From positions 124,001 through 188,000 of the forward strand of contig CANMKG010000007.1 of NCBI GenBank assembly GCA_947498505.1: a stretch of DNA of 64,000 nt. The letters run 5' to 3'. Positions 45,108-57,367 of this stretch are shown here, piece after piece. This DNA comes from an uncultured Maribacter sp. (GTDB taxonomy: Bacteria > Bacteroidota > Bacteroidia > Flavobacteriales > Flavobacteriaceae). Below the pieces are notes generated by a model. That model made no database searches and was not told where the DNA came from. It worked only from the letters and a program-made list of their open reading frames with translations. Numbering within the stretch: position 1 is the stretch's first letter; each line of letters begins with the position of its first letter. The translations under genes were made by a program, and so were the position numbers.

Positions 45108-47594
45108 ATGAACCACAATATATCTCCAGAAGTTAAAAACGCCTTACATATAGCTGAAGCAAATGCAAAAGGTTATTTTAATGACACCTATGGAGCATCG
45201 CACCTATTAAGAGCACTTTTACATAAAGAAATTGGTCTACGTTCCTTTATCGATAACATTGGTGGTGATGTATACTATCTAGAAGAATGGGCGGACGTTC
45301 GCATGGAAGGTCTACCTAGAACTACAAAAGTACAAGATACTATCTCTGGCGATTCATCTATTGACGCAGTGTTTAACGAAGCTGAAATGATTACGCTAAA
45401 ACTTGGTTTAGATGAAGTAACTCCAGTTTGCGTGTTCGCAGCACTTTGTACACCAGGTGTTGGCTTCTCCTATGAGCAATTAAAAACATTACCGGTTACT
45501 AGAGACCAAATTTTAAATGCTGTCGGCAATCAATCCACCTCAGGAAATACTAACGAAAATGTAGTTTCCAATGCAACTACAAACTCAAAAACGGATATCA
45601 GTGTGTTAACTAAATATTGCATTGATAAAACCGCTTTAGCAAAAAGCAAAGCTCTACATGAAATTCGTAGTAGAGATGCGGAAATAAAAATGGTAATAGA
45701 AATTTTAGGACGACATTCTAAACCAAATGTACTCGTAATAGGAGAACCTGGTGTTGGAAAAACGGCCTTACTTGACGGTTTTTCAAATGCCTTAATCAAT
45801 GAACATGTTCCTGAATCTTTAGCTAACGCTCAAATTTATGAGCTTGACTATATTGAATTGGTTTCAGGGGCTAGTTACAGCGGAGAAGTAGAAGACCGAT
45901 TTAAAAAAGTAATAAACGCTATTAAAGCTTTTGACAAACCTATTTTTTTAATTGATGAGTTACATAATCTAACAGACAAAGATGGGCCAAACAAAGGCTT
46001 AATTAATATTTTAAAATCCGAGCTTGCTAAAGGAGAAATTACCATACTCGCAACCGTTACAAACGATGCTTATCGCAAAAACATAGAAAATAATGAAACA
46101 CTTTCTAGAAGATTTGAAGAAGTTAGGTTAGATGAACCTTCAGAAAAAGATGCATTAAAAATGATTGAGCACACCATAAATGATTACTGTACTCATCATA
46201 ACCTTGCGGTAAATCAAAATACCATAGAAGAAGCAATAAAGTTGTCTAAAAGATTTAACAAAGATCGCAGCTTACCTGATTCGGCCATTGATTTATTGGA
46301 TCGTACAATGTCTGCAACTAAATACATGACCGAAACCACGGCTTCTGTTACTGATAAGATAAGTGAGGAAATAAATGCTATATATAACAGTGAAGTATCC
46401 GAAGAAAAAAAATATACTTCGTTAGCACATATTTATGATAATCTTCCCAATAGACTTAGTTATTTATTGTTCACAGAAATAAATGAAGAGGACTACAACA
46501 ATAAGGCAAACAGCGTAATTGATTTAAAAATACAATTAGAGCAACTTCTAAATGCATTAAAAACATTCGGAAACAAACCGAAAAACGCTATCAACAAAAA
46601 CGATGTTTCTGCTACAATAGCCAATAAAACAGGTATCCCGGTTGGGCAATTACAAGCCAATGAAAAGGAAAGACTGTTAAGTATGGAAGAAATACTAAAA
46701 CAGCGTGTAATTGGGCAAGACCATGCTGTAAAAACAATAAGTGAGGCAGTACTGGAATCCCGATCAGGCTTAAGTAAACCAGGGTTACCAATAGGGTCTT
46801 TTTTCTTTACAGGCCCTACCGGAACAGGAAAAACCGAGCTTGCAAAGGCATTAGCTGAGTTTTTGTTTCAGACGCAAGATGCTATCATACGTTTTGATAT
46901 GTCTGAATTTAAAGAAGAACATTCGGCAGCATTGTTATATGGTGCACCTCCTGGTTATGTGGGTTACGAAGAAGGAGGGATTTTGGTGAATAAAATTCGT
47001 CAAAAACCCTACTCAATAGTACTTTTTGATGAAATTGAAAAAGCACATCCGTCTGTATTTGATATCTTTTTACAAATATTAGATGAAGGAAAATTAAATG
47101 ATCGTTTAGGGAAAACCGGAGACTTCTCCAATGCTGTAATCTTATTTACATCTAACATAGGTAGCGAACACGTAGTTGAATCATTTTCAAAAAACATTAT
47201 TCCAAAATCATCAGATTTGTTAGAACTAATGGGAAAGCATTTTAGACCAGAGTTCTTAGGAAGATTGACTGAAATTGTTCCTTTTGCCCCTATTACACAA
47301 GAAAACATTGTTAGCATATTTAATATTCAAATGAAAGACCTTTTAAAGGCTCTTGAAAAACAAAATGTAACGCTAGAACTTACAGAAGATGCTAAAAAAC
47401 ATCTTGCAAACAAAGGCTTTACACCAAAGTATGGAGCAAGACCATTACGCGGTACTATTAGAAATGAATTACGCAGACCATTATCCAGAATGCTAATTAC
47501 TGGAAAAATTAAAAAAGGAGATGTTGTTTCCTTGTCTATAGAAAATGAGGAGTTAAAATGGCAACTCCCCAAACCAGAACCTGTTTACAACTAA
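45108..47594 (+). CDS. tssH: T6SS ATPase TssH (ClpV)
   Basis: 828 residues, AAA+ Clp family. ClpV disassembles contracted sheath by pulling on TssC. Residues 1-140 form the Clp N-domain. First ATPase: Walker A GEPGVGKT at 212-219, Walker B FLIDELHNL. Second ATPase: Walker A FTGPTGTGKTELAK near 566-579, Walker B VLFDEIEKAHPSVFD. The C-terminal D2-small domain ends near 820 (YGARPLRGTIRNELRRPLS). Starts the main sheath transcript, 39 bp before tssB. The middle coiled-coil is shorter than in ClpB, as expected for ClpV. Confidence 0.95.
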   Translation: MNHNISPEVKNALHIAEANAKGYFNDTYGASHLLRALLHKEIGLRSFIDNIGGDVYYLEEWADVRMEGLPRTTKVQDTISGDSSIDAVFNEAEMITLKLGLDEVTPVCVFAALCTPGVGFSYEQLKTLPVTRDQILNAVGNQSTSGNTNENVVSNATTNSKTDISVLTKYCIDKTALAKSKALHEIRSRDAEIKMVIEILGRHSKPNVLVIGEPGVGKTALLDGFSNALINEHVPESLANAQIYELDYIELVSGASYSGEVEDRFKKVINAIKAFDKPIFLIDELHNLTDKDGPNKGLINILKSELAKGEITILATVTNDAYRKNIENNETLSRRFEEVRLDEPSEKDALKMIEHTINDYCTHHNLAVNQNTIEEAIKLSKRFNKDRSLPDSAIDLLDRTMSATKYMTETTASVTDKISEEINAIYNSEVSEEKKYTSLAHIYDNLPNRLSYLLFTEINEEDYNNKANSVIDLKIQLEQLLNALKTFGNKPKNAINKNDVSATIANKTGIPVGQLQANEKERLLSMEEILKQRVIGQDHAVKTISEAVLESRSGLSKPGLPIGSFFFTGPTGTGKTELAKALAEFLFQTQDAIIRFDMSEFKEEHSAALLYGAPPGYVGYEEGGILVNKIRQKPYSIVLFDEIEKAHPSVFDIFLQILDEGKLNDRLGKTGDFSNAVILFTSNIGSEHVVESFSKNIIPKSSDLLELMGKHFRPEFLGRLTEIVPFAPITQENIVSIFNIQMKDLLKALEKQNVTLELTEDAKKHLANKGFTPKYGARPLRGTIRNELRRPLSRMLITGKIKKGDVVSLSIENEELKWQLPKPEPVYN

Positions 47595-47633: not shown

Positions 47634-48083
47634 ATGAGTGATCAAACTTACGGCTTAGGTGGTACAGAAGTAAAACGCGAAAGCATAGAATCTTTACAAG
47701 AGATACCACAAAACAGAACAATATTTGTTGAAAAACTTACACAAGATCAACCGCTTAGACCGGAGATGGTAAAAGGGTTAAAAACAGTTGATGAAGTTTT
47801 TGAGCACTACAGACCTTCAATAGAATTAAGTTTTGAAGATAGTGAGGGCATGGAATCTAAATCTACCTTAAATTTTAATAATCTTGGTGATTTTGGAAAG
47901 AAAGGAATTGTAAATCAAAGTGAATTCCTTAAGGATTTAGACACCGAAAAGGACCAGTATTTGAAGGTCATAAAACAATTAAAGACTAACAAAATTTTAA
48001 AAGCTGCCTTAAGTGACCCCGATGCTAAAGAAGCTTTACTAAATACAATACAAGAACTTATCTCTGAACTAGAAACTAAATAA
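47634..48083 (+). CDS. tssB: T6SS sheath small subunit TssB (VipA)
   Basis: 149 residues. With TssC it builds the contractile sheath around the Hcp tube. Visible TssB pattern: NRTIFVEKLTQDQPLRPEMV near residues 26-45 (beta-strand that plugs into TssC), FEHYRPSIELSFED, LNFNNLGDF near 80-88, and a C-terminal helical region. tssC follows after 2 bp, so the 1:1 pair is translationally linked. Its N-terminal half has clear counterpart residues in the fused protein at 49673. Confidence 0.93.
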   Translation: MSDQTYGLGGTEVKRESIESLQEIPQNRTIFVEKLTQDQPLRPEMVKGLKTVDEVFEHYRPSIELSFEDSEGMESKSTLNFNNLGDFGKKGIVNQSEFLKDLDTEKDQYLKVIKQLKTNKILKAALSDPDAKEALLNTIQELISELETK

Positions 48084-49435: not shown

Positions 49436-49477
49436 TTAAAAGTTAACACTTAAATACAACTTAGTTTAAAACCAAAC

Positions 49478-49522
49478 TATTTTAAAGTATGCTCAATTAA
49501 ATATTGAGTGTACTTTAAAATA
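49478..49522 (+). other. Long imperfect hairpin after tssC
   Basis: Arms 49478-49497 and 49503-49522 (20 nt each) pair except for a 2 x 2 internal mismatch, with a 5-nt loop TAAAT. No T-run follows, so it may end or stabilise the tssHBC message rather than act as a classic terminator. It lies in the 237-bp gap before the fused sheath gene, which also holds a 7-bp inverted repeat CTGTTAC/GTAACAG (49566-49572, 49602-49608). Confidence 0.5.
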
Positions 49523-49672
49523 ATGGTTACAATTAAATTTATGTATTAAAAGTGAAGAAAAGTACCTGTTACAGCTAGTTCTTAGCATTTATTCTTCCAA
49601 GGTAACAGTGAAATTTCTATTTATTTTAAACCAATATTAAAAATGATTTAGCCCTAAATCACACACTGCATC

Positions 49673-51421
49673 ATGACCCAAGTTTTCGGCTCGCAACATA
49701 TTAAACGTAAGCAAGAAGATTCAAGAGATGGCATAAGTAATATTCCTACGAATAAAACCTTATACATAAATCAGTTTACGGCAACAATTCCTCTAAAACC
49801 AGTTCTGGTAAGGGGACTCCAAAACTTGAGCGATATATTTAATTACTACCAACCTAACATGGAAGTAGTTTTAGAAGACTATCAAGAAGCTTTTATAAAA
49901 GAAACTTTTTCCTTTAATAATCTCAATGACTTTGAACCTGAAAACTTAATTGAATCTAGTGAGGTATTACAACAGTTAAAACGTCAACAATTGGAGTGCT
50001 TAGAACTCTTAAAAGCTGCTAGAGGAAATAGTGGTTTCCAAAAAATAATTGAAGAAAAAATAAAGCGAAACGCCTTTATCGCTACCCTTAACGAGTTCAA
50101 AAAACATCTTGACAAAAACACTGAAGCTCAATTTATTGAAAAGTCATTAAACAAAAAAAATGCCGCGGTAAATGTTTTATTGGCAAATGATCATGAATGG
50201 TATAGAATACTCAACACTTCTTCAAGTTCAAAAGCAACTCCAGAATTTCAAAAAAAATTAAAAAACAAACTTCTGGCTCAACACTATTTATGGAAACATT
50301 TATTTACAGATATTGATAGCATAATAGGTTTTGTTGAAAAAGGTAAAAAGTACTATAAGGAGCTAGATACTAGATTTAAAAAAAACTTGCTTCAGATTCT
50401 TAAAGAATCTAGTTTCCTTGAAACCACGTATCGCGGAATAAGTCATTTTATTCAAAATACAAATAAAACTAACATTCCGAACCTAACACTACTAAATGCC
50501 GATATTGAACAATGTAAAACGTTAGACAATCCCATTTTTTTAAACACAGTCAAAAAAGAGTTTAATGACACTTTTGATCGTTTAGACTTAATGGAACACT
50601 ATAGTCTTATGGTTATTCCTGGTTACCTAGGCACCCACACAACCTTAGAACAATGGGCAAAGATTGCTAGTGAAAACAAAGTTTTACTACTTACAGACTT
50701 TACACATTTAGATAACCCGGATGACGTTTCAGAACTTTTTGAAAAAGCCAATCATGTTAGAGCAGATATGCCTTTGGCGAATGTGGTAATGACCTGCAAC
50801 TGGTTAGTAGCCCGTGGTGCAAACAGATGGCTAGGAGAAATGGAACCCTTGTATATACCTCCTTCCTCTGCTCTTGCTGGAAAATTATATTCAAGCTTAC
50901 TATCACAAGCTTGTGCAGGAACAGAATTTGGAGCTGTTGCTGCTGCTAGAGGAGTTCGTTTTTTAATGTCTAAAAACGACTTATCCACCATTGAACAAAA
51001 AGGACTTATACCCATGTATTACAACAATGGAAGTACCGTAGCTTATTCTGCAAAAACGCTTTTTAATGGTAATAATTTAGGCTTACAAACTTATAGTGTT
51101 GTTCGTGTTTTTGATTACCTATCAAAAGTTTTAATTGACTATTTAAACCAACGCACTTTTGAAAACTTTAATGTTAATGTACGTAAACAAGCAATGGAAG
51201 AAATTATTCAGTTTTTAGACCAGCATGTAGGTGCAAATAAACTTATTAGCAATTTTTCGGTATTGCGCTTTGAGCGTGACCCTAAACATAAAGATCAGGT
51301 AATGCTTAATTTAAACATTACTCCTTATTTCCCTGCTAAGAATTTTTTAATACGTATGTATGGAAAAAATGATAGTACCAATAGTAATTGGAAAACAGAT
51401 TATTTAGCTAATACAAATTAG
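49673..51421 (+). CDS. Natural TssB-TssC fusion: second T6SS sheath protein
   Basis: 582 residues, close to the sum of TssB (149) and TssC (449). Residues about 22-148 match TssB: IPTNKTLYINQFTATIPLKP, LVRGLQNLSDIFNYYQP, FSFNNLNDFEPE. A linker of about 45 residues follows, and residues about 195-582 match TssC: DRLDLMEHYSLMVIPGYLG near 302-320, SAKTLFNGNNLGLQTYSVVR, and the ending TPYFPAKNFLIRMYGK. There is no stop or frameshift at the junction. The next gene, an extended Hcp, starts 5 bp downstream. Role unknown; a separate sheath, a cap or a minor sheath subunit are possible. The free TssC N-terminus, where ClpV binds in characterised systems, is buried in the fusion. Confidence 0.85.
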   Translation: MTQVFGSQHIKRKQEDSRDGISNIPTNKTLYINQFTATIPLKPVLVRGLQNLSDIFNYYQPNMEVVLEDYQEAFIKETFSFNNLNDFEPENLIESSEVLQQLKRQQLECLELLKAARGNSGFQKIIEEKIKRNAFIATLNEFKKHLDKNTEAQFIEKSLNKKNAAVNVLLANDHEWYRILNTSSSSKATPEFQKKLKNKLLAQHYLWKHLFTDIDSIIGFVEKGKKYYKELDTRFKKNLLQILKESSFLETTYRGISHFIQNTNKTNIPNLTLLNADIEQCKTLDNPIFLNTVKKEFNDTFDRLDLMEHYSLMVIPGYLGTHTTLEQWAKIASENKVLLLTDFTHLDNPDDVSELFEKANHVRADMPLANVVMTCNWLVARGANRWLGEMEPLYIPPSSALAGKLYSSLLSQACAGTEFGAVAAARGVRFLMSKNDLSTIEQKGLIPMYYNNGSTVAYSAKTLFNGNNLGLQTYSVVRVFDYLSKVLIDYLNQRTFENFNVNVRKQAMEEIIQFLDQHVGANKLISNFSVLRFERDPKHKDQVMLNLNITPYFPAKNFLIRMYGKNDSTNSNWKTDYLANTN

Positions 51422-51426
51422 AAAAT

Positions 51427-52119
51427 ATGAAAGGAATTTTAGCTATAAACGGCGTCAAACTAAATGTAGTGCATTTTACTAACGGTATTTATACCGATGC
51501 TGATGCTACGGGTAGACCATGGGGTAAACCAAATGGCGGTATTTTTAGTGTAGTTATACCAATGACTAAAGATAATAGTGGTATTACTCGCGCTGCGCTG
51601 CATGATACCTTAAAAGTAGATGGTAACATTACCTTTTACCAATGGGACTTTGGTAAAGTATTTTCAAAACTAGAATTCGCAAATGCACATATTGTTCATT
51701 ACTCTGAACATTATGACCATCAAAGTAATGAAGAACCAATGATACAGCTAACATTTAGTCCAGGTATACAACGCTTAAACAACGATACTATTTTTGAAAA
51801 GCCTTGGAACACTAGTAATCCTTTTAAGGACACTTCATCTCCTGTCTCAACAACTAAAAAACCGGTCAGAAAAAAATTAGTCAATTACTTCGTAACCGAT
51901 GCCAAAGGAAATCAACTTAGTGAATACAAAGTAGGAGAAAAAGTAATTCTAAACATAGAAACAAATAACAGAATTGGTGAGGGCATAACCATCTCATTAA
52001 AAAATAAAAGTCATGATTTTAAATTCAGAGGTCAAACTTTAAACAATGATAAGCTAAGCAATTATATTATAAATAGCGATTTAGAACAAATTGAACTGGA
52101 CGTAGTTAATCAACAATAA
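51427..52119 (+). CDS. Hcp (TssD)-like protein with extra C-terminal domain
   Basis: 230 residues. Residues 1-130 keep the Hcp pattern: ILAINGVKLNVVHF, TDADATGRPWGKPNGG near 23-38 (compare DATGRPSSVTRGG in the first Hcp), and EEPMIQLTFSPGIQ. A Pro/Lys linker at 131-150 leads to a further domain of about 80 residues (VTDAKGNQLSEYKVGEKVIL, then beta-rich) that no other Hcp in the window has. Extended Hcps in other bacteria carry effector or adaptor domains; an adaptor for the adjacent lipase is inferred. One base separates its stop from the lipase start. Confidence 0.75.
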   Translation: MKGILAINGVKLNVVHFTNGIYTDADATGRPWGKPNGGIFSVVIPMTKDNSGITRAALHDTLKVDGNITFYQWDFGKVFSKLEFANAHIVHYSEHYDHQSNEEPMIQLTFSPGIQRLNNDTIFEKPWNTSNPFKDTSSPVSTTKKPVRKKLVNYFVTDAKGNQLSEYKVGEKVILNIETNNRIGEGITISLKNKSHDFKFRGQTLNNDKLSNYIINSDLEQIELDVVNQQ

Positions 52120-52120
52120 T

Positions 52121-53701
52121 ATGGCTGTAAACACATTTAAATTAGAATTCGAGGACGGAGTTAGCAAATCTTTAAACGTAAAAGTTGTTGGGTTTAAAGA
52201 TATAATTATGTTTGTTCCAGGAACTACGGACCCTCTTAATACTACAAATTTAAAACATCAAGCAAATAAAAACTACTGGCGCAACAGTCAAGAAAACTTC
52301 TGGGGAAAAGTTAAAAAGCTAAAACCTCAATTTTTAGATTTACATATTGAAGACACTTTTTTTAGTTGGTCTGGAGATAATAATACCCAAGATAGAAATA
52401 ACGCCGCGGATAGGTTATTAGATTTGTTCTCTCGAGTGTATTCTGGTTTTAAAAACAAAGATGTTCATATACACCTTGTAGGACATTCTCATGGAGGTAA
52501 TGTAATTAATCAATTTACGGAATTAATTGCATCCGATTCGCGATTTCCAGAATTGTGGAAAATTAAAAGCATTACCTACTTGTCTACTCCTTTTTTTCAA
52601 AAAAAACATCAACTTAATTCCGCTAAACTTCACGGAGAATGTAAAATCATCAACGTTCATAATGATTATGACATAACGCAACGGTTTATAGCAGATTTCT
52701 CATTAAACAATTTAGAAGGATTAATTCAAAAATTAAATAGTCAAAAATTCAAAAACGCTCTAAACGAAATTGAAAAAACCAATTTTGACACCTTTAAAAT
52801 ATTAGCCGGATTTGTAGTAGAAAACAAAACTGAAGGCCCAAAAGTATGGAGTGAAACCGTAGTATTACTAAACGGAGTTAACAAATTTATTGACGAAATA
52901 ATAGATTACATAGATTCATTCAAGCCAAAAAAATTACAAATAGAGGTTAATGAATTGCGTTTGATTTTTGAAAAATTAAAAAAATGGGTTACCAGCGCTC
53001 GTAACACTTTTGATAAAAATAAAACCAATAGAGATGGAGGTTATGGAAGGAACGAATTTGTTAAAGATGCAAATTTCATCGAAGCTTTTAAACTATTAAA
53101 CACCCTTTTTAAAATAGATAAAAAAATATCAACCAGCTACCTTCTAGACCTATTAGCTCGAGTTTTTAAAGAAAAGAAAGATATAACAGATAGTATTGAC
53201 GACACTTCTTGGACCCCTAAAAAACAAGTGCAAAATAAGTTTAACATTTTGGATTTAGATATCACTAATAAAGATGAATTTCACTCAAAGAACAAAAAGA
53301 ATGACTTTGAAGAATTTGCCAAAGGTGTTGAAAATAGTATGAAAAAAAATGATTTAGCGGAAGTACTAATGCGATTGTTTAGTCAATTTATTAATCCCAA
53401 AAAATTTGGAAACATAATATCTGCTATTAACTATCTTCTAGAACCTTTAGTATGGGGACAGTTGGACTCTCAATTAACTATATTGAGAAAAAATTTAGAA
53501 AAGTACCATTCATTTGTTGAACAATTTAATAAAGATTTGACCATTAAAGAATCTAATAATGACGGCCACCCTAAACTAGGAAGCGTTCCTTATTTTGCTA
53601 CAACCGCACATAGCCTAAGCCACTCTGAATTATGGTCCGATGTGGAAAAAGAGCTTAAAAGCGCCTTTAGTTCAGGAAAAAACCCTGGTTACAAAAAATA
53701 A
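52121..53701 (+). CDS. Alpha/beta-hydrolase (lipase-type) candidate T6SS effector
   Basis: 526 residues with no signal peptide. Alpha/beta-hydrolase marks: oxyanion-loop-like FVPGTTD near 31-37, the nucleophile elbow GHSHGG at 121-126 (Ser123), an acidic residue in NVHNDYDITQRF near 178-189 (Asp182 or Asp184) and a candidate His at 497 or 501 (TTAHSLSHSELW). GHSHGG resembles T6SS lipase effectors of the Tle group (phospholipases), though I cannot assign a family. The centre (about 220-460) is helical without known motifs. It lies between an extended Hcp and a small membrane protein, the order expected for carrier, toxin and immunity. Confidence 0.7.
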   Translation: MAVNTFKLEFEDGVSKSLNVKVVGFKDIIMFVPGTTDPLNTTNLKHQANKNYWRNSQENFWGKVKKLKPQFLDLHIEDTFFSWSGDNNTQDRNNAADRLLDLFSRVYSGFKNKDVHIHLVGHSHGGNVINQFTELIASDSRFPELWKIKSITYLSTPFFQKKHQLNSAKLHGECKIINVHNDYDITQRFIADFSLNNLEGLIQKLNSQKFKNALNEIEKTNFDTFKILAGFVVENKTEGPKVWSETVVLLNGVNKFIDEIIDYIDSFKPKKLQIEVNELRLIFEKLKKWVTSARNTFDKNKTNRDGGYGRNEFVKDANFIEAFKLLNTLFKIDKKISTSYLLDLLARVFKEKKDITDSIDDTSWTPKKQVQNKFNILDLDITNKDEFHSKNKKNDFEEFAKGVENSMKKNDLAEVLMRLFSQFINPKKFGNIISAINYLLEPLVWGQLDSQLTILRKNLEKYHSFVEQFNKDLTIKESNNDGHPKLGSVPYFATTAHSLSHSELWSDVEKELKSAFSSGKNPGYKK

Positions 53702-53706
53702 ACACT

Positions 53707-54048
53707 ATGAAAAAGAGAACCAAATTAGCATTAAAATTTACAATCGTATTTCTAATTACTTTGCTTTTAATTACGCTTTATTTAGTGTTTGCATTCACTG
53801 AATTTAAAGAACCTATTAGCGTAAAACTGGTCACGAAGATTATTAAGCAATTTGGACTAATAATTAGCATCCCTACTACTCTTTTGTTTTTAGCAGCTGA
53901 TTTCTTGTTGTTAAAACTGATTAAAAAAAATTGGATTCTAAATATGATAAGGGTTATTGTGCTATTCATATTTACATATTTAGTGAGTTTAATGCTCTCT
54001 AGCTATATTATTTTCAATGCACTATTAGATAGTCCCGTAAACAGTTAA
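53707..54048 (+). CDS. Small three-helix membrane protein, candidate immunity to the lipase
   Basis: 113 residues, unrecognised. Three hydrophobic helices: about 8-30 (LKFTIVFLITLLLITLYLVF), about 48-70, and about 80-104, with a basic N-terminus. It starts 5 bp after the putative lipase. Immunity proteins against periplasmic or membrane-acting T6SS lipases are commonly membrane or periplasmic and encoded just downstream of the toxin, so this is the inferred role. No homology evidence. Confidence 0.5.
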   Translation: MKKRTKLALKFTIVFLITLLLITLYLVFAFTEFKEPISVKLVTKIIKQFGLIISIPTTLLFLAADFLLLKLIKKNWILNMIRVIVLFIFTYLVSLMLSSYIIFNALLDSPVNS

Positions 54049-54060
54049 TAACACAGAAAC

Positions 54061-54492
54061 ATGAAACTTAATTACTACAGTTTACCACTAGATACCGGCC
54101 GTTTAATAAGCGGTAAAAAAACAGAAAAAATGCTGTTAGGTGAATCTGTAGCACAACATTTACATTTAGTAATGACCACAAGTTTTGGGGAATGTCAATT
54201 TGATAAAAGTTTTGGTTGTGCACTTTGGAATATAGATTTCAACAACGTAACAAGCGATGCTAAATTAAAGGAAAACATAGCCGAAGCAATATTAAAATCA
54301 TTACGACGTCATGAAAAAAGACTCTCAAATATAGATGTTTCAATAGATGTTGAACAAGAGGAAAGTAACATTGACGAGAAAAAAAGTAGGATAAAAAAGT
54401 TAGTGCATATTACTATTAGTGGGCTACTAACTCAAATTGATGACGAATTCGTCTATTACGAACATTTTTATATTGGACCGTTGTCCTATTAA
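54061..54492 (+). CDS. tssE: T6SS baseplate wedge protein TssE (gp25-like)
   Basis: 143 residues. GPW/gp25-fold protein that joins the baseplate to the first sheath ring. Visible pattern: SVAQHLHLVMTTSFGECQFD near residues 29-48, SFGCALWNID, ENIAEAILKSLRRHEKRLSN near 70-89, then a beta-rich C-terminal part. tssF follows after 3 bp. Confidence 0.85.
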   Translation: MKLNYYSLPLDTGRLISGKKTEKMLLGESVAQHLHLVMTTSFGECQFDKSFGCALWNIDFNNVTSDAKLKENIAEAILKSLRRHEKRLSNIDVSIDVEQEESNIDEKKSRIKKLVHITISGLLTQIDDEFVYYEHFYIGPLSY

Positions 54493-54495
54493 AAT

Positions 54496-56373
54496 ATGGA
54501 AGATTATAATAAAAAACACATTACCCGCGATATGCTTAAGCAAGCTGCGCAACTATGGAATATTCCATTAGGAGAAACCGAAACTTCTTTTGACCCATTG
54601 GTTGTTATGCTTATAAAAGCATGTGCAGGTGAATTAGAAAAAGTACATGGAAAACTCAAAGATATGAGTGCTTCCATAACCGAAAACCTAGTGGAGTTAA
54701 TGGAACCCGATTACGGGCGTAGTGCAACCCCAGCTCACGGAATTGTACAATTTTCTCCTAAAGTAGAACAAGGCATTCTTAACCCTAACCAACAACTTTT
54801 ACATAACCCTATCCAAGATTTATCCGCTAATAATCGTGAAGAATTTTTCTTTTCAAGTATTGACAGTTATCCGTTAACCGATGCTAAGGTGGACTATTTA
54901 ATTGCTGGAAAATCGTTAATACAATTCGATAAACTTGGAAGAAACAAGCAAATAGGTTCAACAAAAAAAGCAATAGCGCCTCATACCATTTATATTGGTA
55001 TTAGCACAGAACAAGAAACGTTAAACCTTACTAAACTACCCATTTATTTAAAGGCTAGAGGAGCGCAATCTACGTTGTTTTATCACTATCTTAAAACTGC
55101 AAATTGGTGGCTAGATGATACACAACTACAAACCACTAACGGACTTGGAAATTATACAAATAAAGCTCAAAAAATATTAGAAAGAGATTATAATGCAAAT
55201 GCAACCAAAATGCATCGCATATGCAATACGGTAGACCGCTACTATCAAAAACATTACATTACACTTGAAGGACCTACTTTACTAACTTCATCAACAAAAA
55301 AAACGTCACTTAAAGAAAAAAAAATAACCACTACTGCATCAGCAATAGAAGATTTACTGGACAAAAAAGAATTTAAACCAAAAGGGAATATTTTTTGGTT
55401 AAAAATTGTGTTTAACAGCATTGTTCCAGATACGCTATTACAAGACCTGTTTATCAGCATTAATGCGTACCCAGTTATTAATAGAAAAAGACATAAGGTT
55501 ACCTATCAAATGAAAGATTACCTAAACGTAATTCCTATTTTGACAGATAAACCCTTTTTAGATATTGCCACATTAGAAAACATAAAAGGTAAAGCATATT
55601 ATCCTCAACAAATACATGAAAAATTCCAACATGATTCTTCTCTAAAGGGGAGCTATGTTATTTGGGATCATGGCATGGGAAAATTAGAACAACGTAAAGC
55701 AAAAGAGCAAGTAACACATTTGTTAGACCTACTCCAAGACGAAAGTGCTGCTTTTACTTTTATGAATCAAGAGTTTTTAAAAAACAACCTTACGCAACTA
55801 GGAAAATTAATGACCGCTATAGATCAAAAATTGACCAATAGCGAAAACCTCAACAAGCAAACATATTATCTACAGATAAATCCTTTTGATGTAAACGAGC
55901 ATTTAATACTAACTTATTGGACAACAGATGGCGAATTAGCTAATGATATTCCCGTTGGTGGAATGCTAACCCCATATCAAGATGATTACTCTTTTTTAAA
56001 GGGGGGACAGTTTTTGACAATGGTACATGGGGGTAGTACAAACCCTAACCGCAAAGAACGATTAAACCGCTACAGAAGCAAAGCGTTATCCGGAGATCGC
56101 ATTGTAACCGTGGCAGACTTAAAAGCATTTTGTCATATGCATTACGGAAAAATAGTTTCCGATATAAAGGTCAAGCAAGCCACCACACTACAAATCAATA
56201 GAAATAAAGGAAGAATTCCGTGTATGCAAATCACCATTACACCATCCAGAGAGCATTTAGTTTCCGATGAAGCGTGGGAACACCTACATGAGGACTTACT
56301 ATATCATCTAAAACATAGAGCCTTAAACATTTTACCACATATTATTAAAATGAACAAACACTATGAAAAATAA
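54496..56373 (+). CDS. tssF: T6SS baseplate protein TssF
   Basis: 625 residues. Baseplate wedge component that, with TssG, TssE and TssK, forms the platform for tube and sheath. Family features: LWNIPLGETETSFDPLVVML near residues 17-36, NLVELMEPDYGRSATPAHGI near 63-82, and near the C-terminus a conserved ending KIVSDIKVKQATTLQ and SREHLVSDEAWEHLHEDLLY. Longer than most proteobacterial TssF. Overlaps the next gene by 11 bp. Confidence 0.85.
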   Translation: MEDYNKKHITRDMLKQAAQLWNIPLGETETSFDPLVVMLIKACAGELEKVHGKLKDMSASITENLVELMEPDYGRSATPAHGIVQFSPKVEQGILNPNQQLLHNPIQDLSANNREEFFFSSIDSYPLTDAKVDYLIAGKSLIQFDKLGRNKQIGSTKKAIAPHTIYIGISTEQETLNLTKLPIYLKARGAQSTLFYHYLKTANWWLDDTQLQTTNGLGNYTNKAQKILERDYNANATKMHRICNTVDRYYQKHYITLEGPTLLTSSTKKTSLKEKKITTTASAIEDLLDKKEFKPKGNIFWLKIVFNSIVPDTLLQDLFISINAYPVINRKRHKVTYQMKDYLNVIPILTDKPFLDIATLENIKGKAYYPQQIHEKFQHDSSLKGSYVIWDHGMGKLEQRKAKEQVTHLLDLLQDESAAFTFMNQEFLKNNLTQLGKLMTAIDQKLTNSENLNKQTYYLQINPFDVNEHLILTYWTTDGELANDIPVGGMLTPYQDDYSFLKGGQFLTMVHGGSTNPNRKERLNRYRSKALSGDRIVTVADLKAFCHMHYGKIVSDIKVKQATTLQINRNKGRIPCMQITITPSREHLVSDEAWEHLHEDLLYHLKHRALNILPHIIKMNKHYEK

Positions 56374-57367
56374 AGCTAGTCAGGCACCGTACTTAGATAA
56401 CATGGTTCGCTACTTTTTTGCTGCAATTATTGGCATTTCTGGCATAATAGTAGGCTTTAAAGTTGCGGACACCATGAATTGTGAATATGTAGAAATAGAT
56501 ATTTCTGCCATGGAATATAGAGTGGGCGAACTTATTGAGTTTACAGACCTAACAGAAAAAGCGGAAAGCTGGTCATGGAGTTTCGGAGACAGCACAGATA
56601 CAGTAGATAAACGCAAAGCATATCACATCTACGATAAACCTGGAAACTACGAAATACGTTTAATGGTTAACGGGCAGTGTGAGCGTCTGGAAGAATTAAT
56701 TATAAAAGAAAGAAAATTTGTATTAGACCCTTCAAAAATCCCTTATTTTGAATTACCCGAAAGCATTGCAGTAGGCACTCCCCTTCGTGTTAAAGACACC
56801 ACCAAAAGCTATAGTTGGGAATGGCGTTTTGGAGATACCTCAAAAGCAAACGCTCTAACTCGTAGAGCCGAATATACCTATAAAGAACCAGGTATACGAA
56901 CCGTTTCGTTAATCACAAATGGAGACATTCGCCATATGGCCAGCAAAAAGATTATGGTTTATTTAAAAGAAAATCCACCTCCAAAACCCAATCGTAGACG
57001 AAGAAGAAACGCAAGTCAGGCAGTATCAATTGATACCATTCCTATAATTCCTGAAGATTGGATAGAAAGTCAATTAAAAAAGGATATGGGACCATACATA
57101 AGCGAAGGAGATTTTAAAACGCAGTTAGAAAAAGTAATTCGAGAGGATGCTAGTCCCAAATACTTTACAGAATACTTCTGCGGAGAAATTAACAAAAACT
57201 GTATCGTAGATGGTGAAAGCATGCCTTTTTTAGAGCTATGCACATATCTTAAAAAACGAAAAAGAAGAAAAATAACAAAGCTAGAACTCTTTAGAGAAGA
57301 AGGTTCTAATTGTATTAAATATGTACAATTAAGTTTAAAAAGAAAGTGGTTACAGGTTAAAAAATAA
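56363..57367 (+). CDS. Membrane-anchored PKD-repeat protein of the T6SS locus
   Basis: 334 residues. Membrane helix about 13-33 (YFFAAIIGISGIIVGFKVAD) near the N-terminus, then two PKD domains (about 50-115 with SWSWSFGDST, and about 130-205 with SWEWRFGDTSKA), a basic Pro-rich linker (PPKPNRRRRRN) and a C-terminal domain of about 110 residues. T6SSiii lacks the classical TssJLM envelope complex and uses Bacteroidota-specific membrane proteins instead; an envelope-spanning or TssP-type role is inferred. Overlaps tssF and precedes tssK by 4 bp, so it is part of the structural operon. Confidence 0.7.
   Translation: MKNKASQAPYLDNMVRYFFAAIIGISGIIVGFKVADTMNCEYVEIDISAMEYRVGELIEFTDLTEKAESWSWSFGDSTDTVDKRKAYHIYDKPGNYEIRLMVNGQCERLEELIIKERKFVLDPSKIPYFELPESIAVGTPLRVKDTTKSYSWEWRFGDTSKANALTRRAEYTYKEPGIRTVSLITNGDIRHMASKKIMVYLKENPPPKPNRRRRRNASQAVSIDTIPIIPEDWIESQLKKDMGPYISEGDFKTQLEKVIREDASPKYFTEYFCGEINKNCIVDGESMPFLELCTYLKKRKRRKITKLELFREEGSNCIKYVQLSLKRKWLQVKK

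Follow-up and report, generated by a model that had tools for sequence, protein, structure and literature searches.

In a 64,000-nucleotide stretch of DNA from an uncultured marine Maribacter species, a single reading frame encodes a natural fusion of TssB and TssC, the two sheath proteins of the type VI secretion system (T6SS), a harpoon that injects toxins. The whole stretch is called the window here, and its genome G000. The reading we favour, held at roughly even confidence, is that the product of this frame is an accessory sheath subunit for the T6SS of Bacteroidota (T6SSiii), with TssB and TssC joined in a single chain. T6SS sheaths have been described as two-protein structures that are recycled by ClpV, whereas phage and pyocin sheaths are made of one protein and are not recycled. 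A one-chain subunit in a ClpV-containing T6SS, with unfused kin that also lack a conserved TssC motif, is a natural experiment on the splitting of T6SS sheaths, and a ready-made probe of how the TssC N-terminus, subunit splitting and recycling are linked. Without its presumed recycling tag, the fusion could yield a harpoon part that is left assembled after firing.

The fused gene and its two halves

The gene and its parts are as follows.

49673..51421 (stop codon included), forward strand: fused TssB-TssC sheath protein, 582 residues, identified by an intact open reading frame, a PF17541 match and a homologue in a second genome of the genus
49673..50107, forward strand: TssB-like half, residues 1-145, identified by a sub-threshold PF05591 match and by blastp
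50108..50248, forward strand: private linker, residues 146-192, replacing the TssC N-terminal segment with its conserved motif
50249..51418, forward strand: TssC-like half, residues 193-582, which keeps the conserved core and the C-terminal arm

The 582-codon frame is intact, with no internal stops. The Pfam TssC model, PF17541, matches residues 193-577 with an E value of 3e-147 and 491 bits (cut-off 25), and the alignment covers profile positions 44-428 of 430, which places the protein in the TssC family. The TssB model, PF05591 (T6SS_VipA), matches residues 73-140 at 22.9 bits, under its curated 24-bit cut-off. Because the neighbouring unfused TssB also scores below it (20.2 bits), this cut-off is ill suited to the T6SSiii clade. 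By blastp the N-terminal half aligns with the TssBs of T6SSiii loci at 24-35% identity, with E values mostly from 3e-15 to 5e-25, and with the distant TssB of G1045 at 6e-10. Its first 19 residues are private, at 19% identity to the canonical TssB consensus and 84% between the two Maribacter-genus fusions. The most conserved parts of the protein are the TssC core and arm regions.

These results bear out the first-pass annotation, made from the sequence alone, which had described a single 582-codon TssB-TssC gene with the unfused pair just upstream; a TssB of 149 residues and a TssC of 449 do lie directly 5' of it. Two things that it had listed as telling against a fusion, a stop codon or frameshift at the junction and an N-terminal part unlike TssB, were not seen: the frame is open, and blastp finds the N-terminal part TssB-like. 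The search for full-length homologues that it had proposed found an intact one in G300, a second genome of the genus Maribacter and from another species. This copy is 76% identical and lies between a tssC, 96% identical to that of the window, and tssE. Because the same full-length frame occurs there, a sequencing error or frameshift at the junction is ruled out. Thus, in two genomes, the components that are separate chains in a two-component T6SS sheath share one uninterrupted frame.

An AlphaFold model of the fusion as a monomer aligns with the sheaths of pyocins, extracellular contractile injection systems (eCIS) and phages, with the match passing from the TssB half to the TssC half and the N-to-C order preserved, so that one predicted chain spans the sheath core as in single-chain contractile sheaths. 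Identity over the aligned rows is only 8-16%. The linker is predicted as short helices, and the block has a predicted local distance difference test score of about 65-76 up to residue 190. A sequence-profile search of the PDB found little or nothing for the fusion, and a single-sequence search found only a TssB chain, at an E value of 0.17, and one unrelated chain. PF17482 scored 23.9 bits against a cut-off of 26.9. No relative was found on viral contigs, and tblastn of 50,697 phage records at E 1e-3 gave no match. Given the missing phage match, the sub-threshold PF17482 score and the 491 bits of the TssC model, the sequence does not indicate descent from phage or eCIS sheaths.

Between the window genome and G300, the fusion gene has a pN of 0.152 and a pS of 0.717, giving a ratio of nonsynonymous to synonymous substitution rates (dN/dS) of about 0.07, with dS near saturation. 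This is close to the values for tssK (0.081) and tssF (0.104), and by this measure the gene is under purifying selection. A decaying or regulatory paralogue, meaning a protein with no structural role that is either a relic or a poison of sheath growth, is in our judgement very unlikely. It would suit the long branches of these proteins and the faster evolution of the fusion relative to tssC (75.5% versus 96.0% identity between the two genomes), but not the tssK- and tssF-like level of selection, the conservation of the TssC core and arm, or the open, full-length frames in all seven genomes with accessory or fused copies.

An accessory lineage of sheath proteins

Fusions are rare. We searched overlapping genome samples from the order (296 genomes), the genus (8), the family (397), the class (395), the phylum (345), the genus of G572 (6) and the family again (383), the two family samples overlapping heavily. 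TssC matches occurred in 103 different Bacteroidota genomes, and the matching loci of all 103 were examined. These gave 121 distinct TssC frames of at least 420 residues, two of them edge-cut fragments of window-genome genes, leaving 119 proteins. TssB shares the frame with TssC in four of the 119, from the window genome, G300, G572 and G1315, the last two belonging to another Flavobacteriaceae genus (g170). A second sheath locus occurs in five of the six g170 genomes. It holds a fusion in G572 and G1315 and separate tssB and tssC genes in G381, G1316 and G1317, and it lies about 8-14 kb from the main pair in four genomes and about 343 kb from it in G1317. In G1318, the remaining genome, there is no second copy, and its TssC belongs to another branch. 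The idea that the fusion is common across T6SSiii was dropped: many "open frames" of 600-660 residues (G133 and G211, for example) consist of a tssB and a tssC that share a reading frame but are divided by a stop.

Two 7-residue patterns from the N-terminal half, which could detect only close relatives, found in the 11.3 million contigs of genome_contigs only the Maribacter record NZ_CANMRY010000007.1 (that is, G300), from isolate 2-618. Among 72,556 plasmid records 11 matched, and 7 of the 10 matches listed have two annotated genes under the match, by annotation only. We found no description of a natural TssB-TssC fusion or sheath paralogue in titles, abstracts or passages of the open-access literature; the "fusion" mentioned in passages of PMC10781749 is a GFP tag.

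The extra copies appear to be related to each other. In a TssC-core tree of 66 rows, from which frames shorter than 430 residues were left out, the seven accessory or fused rows group together (100/99) within the TssCs of Flavobacteriaceae, and a separate TssB tree of 51 rows puts the same seven on one side of a branch (99/100). Approximately unbiased (AU) tests, which used 32 rows (34 of the 66 dropped), reject trees that group the fusions with the canonical TssCs of their own genomes (p 3.6e-6), and likewise trees that do so for the g170 accessory copies (p 3.5e-6); a recent duplication of the window's own TssC is thereby ruled out as the origin. At 180 columns conserved in canonical TssCs (G1045 left out), the Maribacter-genus pair deviates at 38, the g170 copies at 16 and both at 11, with 3.4 expected if the two were independent and rate differences are ignored; 7 of the shared deviations are to an identical residue. 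In both trees, with long branches as a caveat, the extra copies, fused or not, make up a single accessory lineage apart from the main TssBC of each genome.

Within this lineage, fusion probably occurred at least twice. The Maribacter-genus junction keeps the TssB C-terminal helix and adds a 47-residue private linker; the g170 junction lacks the last part of TssB and roughly 70 residues from the start of TssC. In G381, whose accessory TssC is unfused, the PF17541 match begins at position 12; in the fusions it begins only at positions 38 to 46. It is this retention by G381 of sequence that the fusions have lost, together with the difference between junctions, that suggests more than one event, and descent from one ancestral fusion that was later split is disfavoured because the G381 TssC keeps the segment that the fusions lack. 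An AU test on the TssC core also rejects a single clade of all four fused copies (p 0.0025), but that test is confounded by the G1315 fusion (L087:9675-11219), a mosaic that resembles G572 before residue 200 and the unfused G1317 copy after it. Within g170 the fused N-terminal half probably spread by recombination.

The missing TssC segment and a proposed role

Canonical T6SSiii TssCs carry an N-terminal segment with the consensus GGF(D)LLE..I....N.NP..RKAR..IFL. A strict pattern found it in 99 of 112 canonical TssCs and in none of the 7 accessory or fused copies; with a looser two-part test the counts were 101 of 112 and, again, 0 of 7. The 11 canonical proteins that fail the looser test are mostly recognisable variants by eye, and the window's and G300's own canonical TssCs both have the motif. 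In the fusion, linker residues 146-192 take the place of the segment that bears the conserved GGF..LE....N.NP..RKAR motif. The position of the motif corresponds to the ClpV-binding helix of VipB, and its T6SSiii form (DLLESAI) resembles LLDEII; by this position and likeness, it is a putative ClpV site. Passages of PMC5807055 describe outer domain 3 of the Pseudomonas aeruginosa TssBC as one TssB helix plus two TssC helices, and the non-recycled R2 pyocin sheath as being without that domain.

The first-pass annotation had held that in the fusion the TssC N-terminus recognised by ClpV becomes internal. It was right that there is no free terminus, but the corresponding conserved segment is not merely internal: it is absent outright, as in all seven copies (0/7). 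Its suggestion of a non-recycled minor subunit fits this absence, non-recycling itself being a prediction from sequence.

We propose that the fusion enters the sheath of the genome's one T6SS as a subunit that is minor, or used only conditionally, and that ClpV is unable to extract, an explanation that we believe about as much as we doubt it. Its two halves would form one folded protomer, the arrangement found in the sheaths of pyocins, eCIS and phages. With the inner, tube-facing and neighbour-binding parts kept, it would polymerise on the baseplate and Hcp tube of the main TssBC. With the outer ClpV-binding segment gone and the TssC N-terminus no longer free, ClpV would be unable to pull the subunit out, and a sheath, or stretch of sheath, containing it would be slow or unable to recycle after contraction. 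Co-assembly, position, ClpV resistance and the effect on recycling are what we infer from the parts that are kept and lost.

Several observations weigh against this proposal or against the lineage on which it draws. Passages of PMC4239648 report that ClpV binding in the P. aeruginosa H1-T6SS does not need the TssC N-terminal helix. ClpV can thus act in more than one way, and a protein that has lost the motif is not necessarily resistant to it. The N-arm of the fusion is only 38% identical to the canonical consensus, and co-assembly with canonical TssBC is not assured. Structural alignments that reach residue 550 have root-mean-square deviations of about 8-11, with the C-terminal part placed differently. 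The accessory branches are long, and the tree program flags possible long-branch attraction. In a tree without the g170 copies (and also without G1045, G953 and 13 near-identical rows), the fusions of the Maribacter genus branch at the root and not close to any canonical TssC.

Which machine the fusion would serve can be judged from its neighbours. On its 5' side lie genes for Hcp, the ClpV-type ATPase, TssB and TssC; on its 3' side follow an extended Hcp, a 526-residue protein, a small open reading frame, TssE, TssF, a PKD-domain protein, TssK (identified by weak matches), TssO and TssN. The features used below are these.

45108..47594, forward strand: TssH/ClpV-type AAA+ ATPase, named by its Clp/AAA domains and its position in the cluster; the expected sheath recycler
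47634..48083, forward strand: canonical unfused TssB, 149 residues
48086..49435, forward strand: canonical unfused TssC, 449 residues, bearing the N-terminal motif; its G300 counterpart is 96% identical
49436..49672, forward strand: intergenic leader between tssC and the fusion gene, with two hairpins and a conserved element
51427-52119: extended Hcp, 230 residues, Hcp domain 2-128, starting 5 bp past the fusion gene
54061..54492, forward strand: TssE (gp25-like), single copy in the genome; directly 3' of the fusion gene in G300

Each of the seven genomes has one clear TssE, so a single baseplate probably serves both the fused and the normal sheath proteins. An extra, weak TssE/gp25-like match in G1316 (C11:227949-228284, E 5e-5) is possibly part of another contractile system. 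The first-pass annotation had offered a distinct sheath for the neighbouring extended Hcp. That idea, or a wholly separate T6SS, now has a very slim chance: the 5-bp adjacency in the window speaks for it, but in G300 the order is tssC, fusion, tssE, with no extended Hcp beside the fusion, and the single clear TssE per genome argues against a second machine. Full-length extended Hcp is present in G000, G1315, G1316 and G381 and missing from G300, G572 and G1317, thus in two of the four fusion genomes and two of the three with an unfused accessory pair, a distribution irrespective of the fusion.

Between the fusion gene and tssE, positions 51427-54048 hold the extended Hcp, the 526-residue protein (with sub-threshold alpha/beta-hydrolase matches) and a 113-residue open reading frame; the block is missing at the corresponding place in G300, and resembles an effector carried on Hcp, possibly alongside an immunity gene. 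The PKD-domain protein (56363-57367), between tssF and tssK, is kept in four g170 clusters at 44-45% identity.

A further alternative gives the fusion a fixed place, as only the first (baseplate-proximal) or last (distal) ring, in the manner of minor eCIS sheath paralogues, where it would anchor or cap an ordinary sheath. The position of the G300 gene directly between tssC and tssE would suit this, as would the private N-terminal 19 residues, 84% conserved between the two fusions of the genus as a partner-binding end might be, and passages of PMC12961389 describe an eCIS sheath, that of the antifeeding prophage (AFP), that uses three proteins, Afp2, Afp3 and Afp4. The g170 accessory genes, however, lie about 8-14 kb (four genomes) or about 343 kb (G1317) from the main pair and so show no positional link to tssE. 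We regard such a ring as unlikely, though deserving of attention.

The leader bears on another possibility. It contains a long AT-rich hairpin (about 49478-49523) and a small one ahead of the start codon, and in both Maribacter-genus genomes (49436-49672; L056:12891-13190, reverse strand) it folds far better than shuffled sequences, with z about -5 to -6. The long hairpin has the same position in both genomes and a different sequence. The rest of the leader has diverged around a conserved element, GTTAYAGCTAGTTCTTAGCATT, at 49568-49589 in the window and at G300:C7:29972-29992 on the reverse strand. A 21-nt form of it, allowing up to 3 mismatches, has one match per genome, both at the leader (reversed control, 0 and 1), and the element is possibly a regulatory site. 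Rfam gave six matches to the leader, all far under their gathering scores. Leaders of three g170 accessory loci had no comparable hairpins (z -0.3 to 1.2).

Private hairpins and a conserved 22-nt element could permit separate control, and under some condition the one-chain protein might build a sheath alone on the shared baseplate and Hcp tube, as a phage-like, one-shot weapon. The modelled likeness to non-recycled pyocin and phage sheaths and the one clear TssE per genome are compatible with such a disposable homopolymer, but the Maribacter-genus gene sits within the T6SS cluster and the three g170 leaders lack comparable hairpins; we think it improbable, though it too deserves attention.

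In the 140 bases 3' of canonical tssC, 9 of 18 other T6SS loci (L006, L010 and L013 among them) fold better than shuffles (z < -2.5), some as terminator-like hairpins with T-runs, which suggests that tssBC often end a transcript.

Comparison with known sheaths

With the T6SSiii TssB and TssC (VipA/VipB type; PF05591 and PF17541) the fusion shares the sequence of both halves, the gene neighbourhood, the conserved core and the C-terminal arm; it differs from them in being one chain, in lacking the N-terminal TssC motif and in belonging to a paralogous lineage that stands beside a normal pair. The sheath proteins of R-type pyocins, of eCIS (AFP, PVC and the Streptomyces contractile injection system) and of phage tails are single polypeptides, as is the fusion, and those of AFP are likewise single-chain. 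A further likeness is that the pyocin sheath is without the ClpV-related outer domain, according to passages of PMC5807055. Unlike all of these, the fusion descends from T6SSiii TssB and TssC and is encoded in a ClpV-containing T6SS. AFP, with Afp2, Afp3 and Afp4 (passages of PMC12961389), already shows that one contractile tail can contain several sheath proteins; here, in contrast, a one-chain type coexists with a two-chain type.

A broader view, which we put forward as speculative and rather doubtful, is that some Bacteroidota T6SSs have two kinds of sheath per baseplate, one two-chain and recycled by ClpV, the other one-chain, phage-like and non-recyclable, and that the one-chain type was rebuilt twice from T6SS parts in a paralogue already without the ClpV segment. 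The fusion itself is best described as a T6SS sheath variant: phage-like by its one-chain build, TssB plus TssC by descent.
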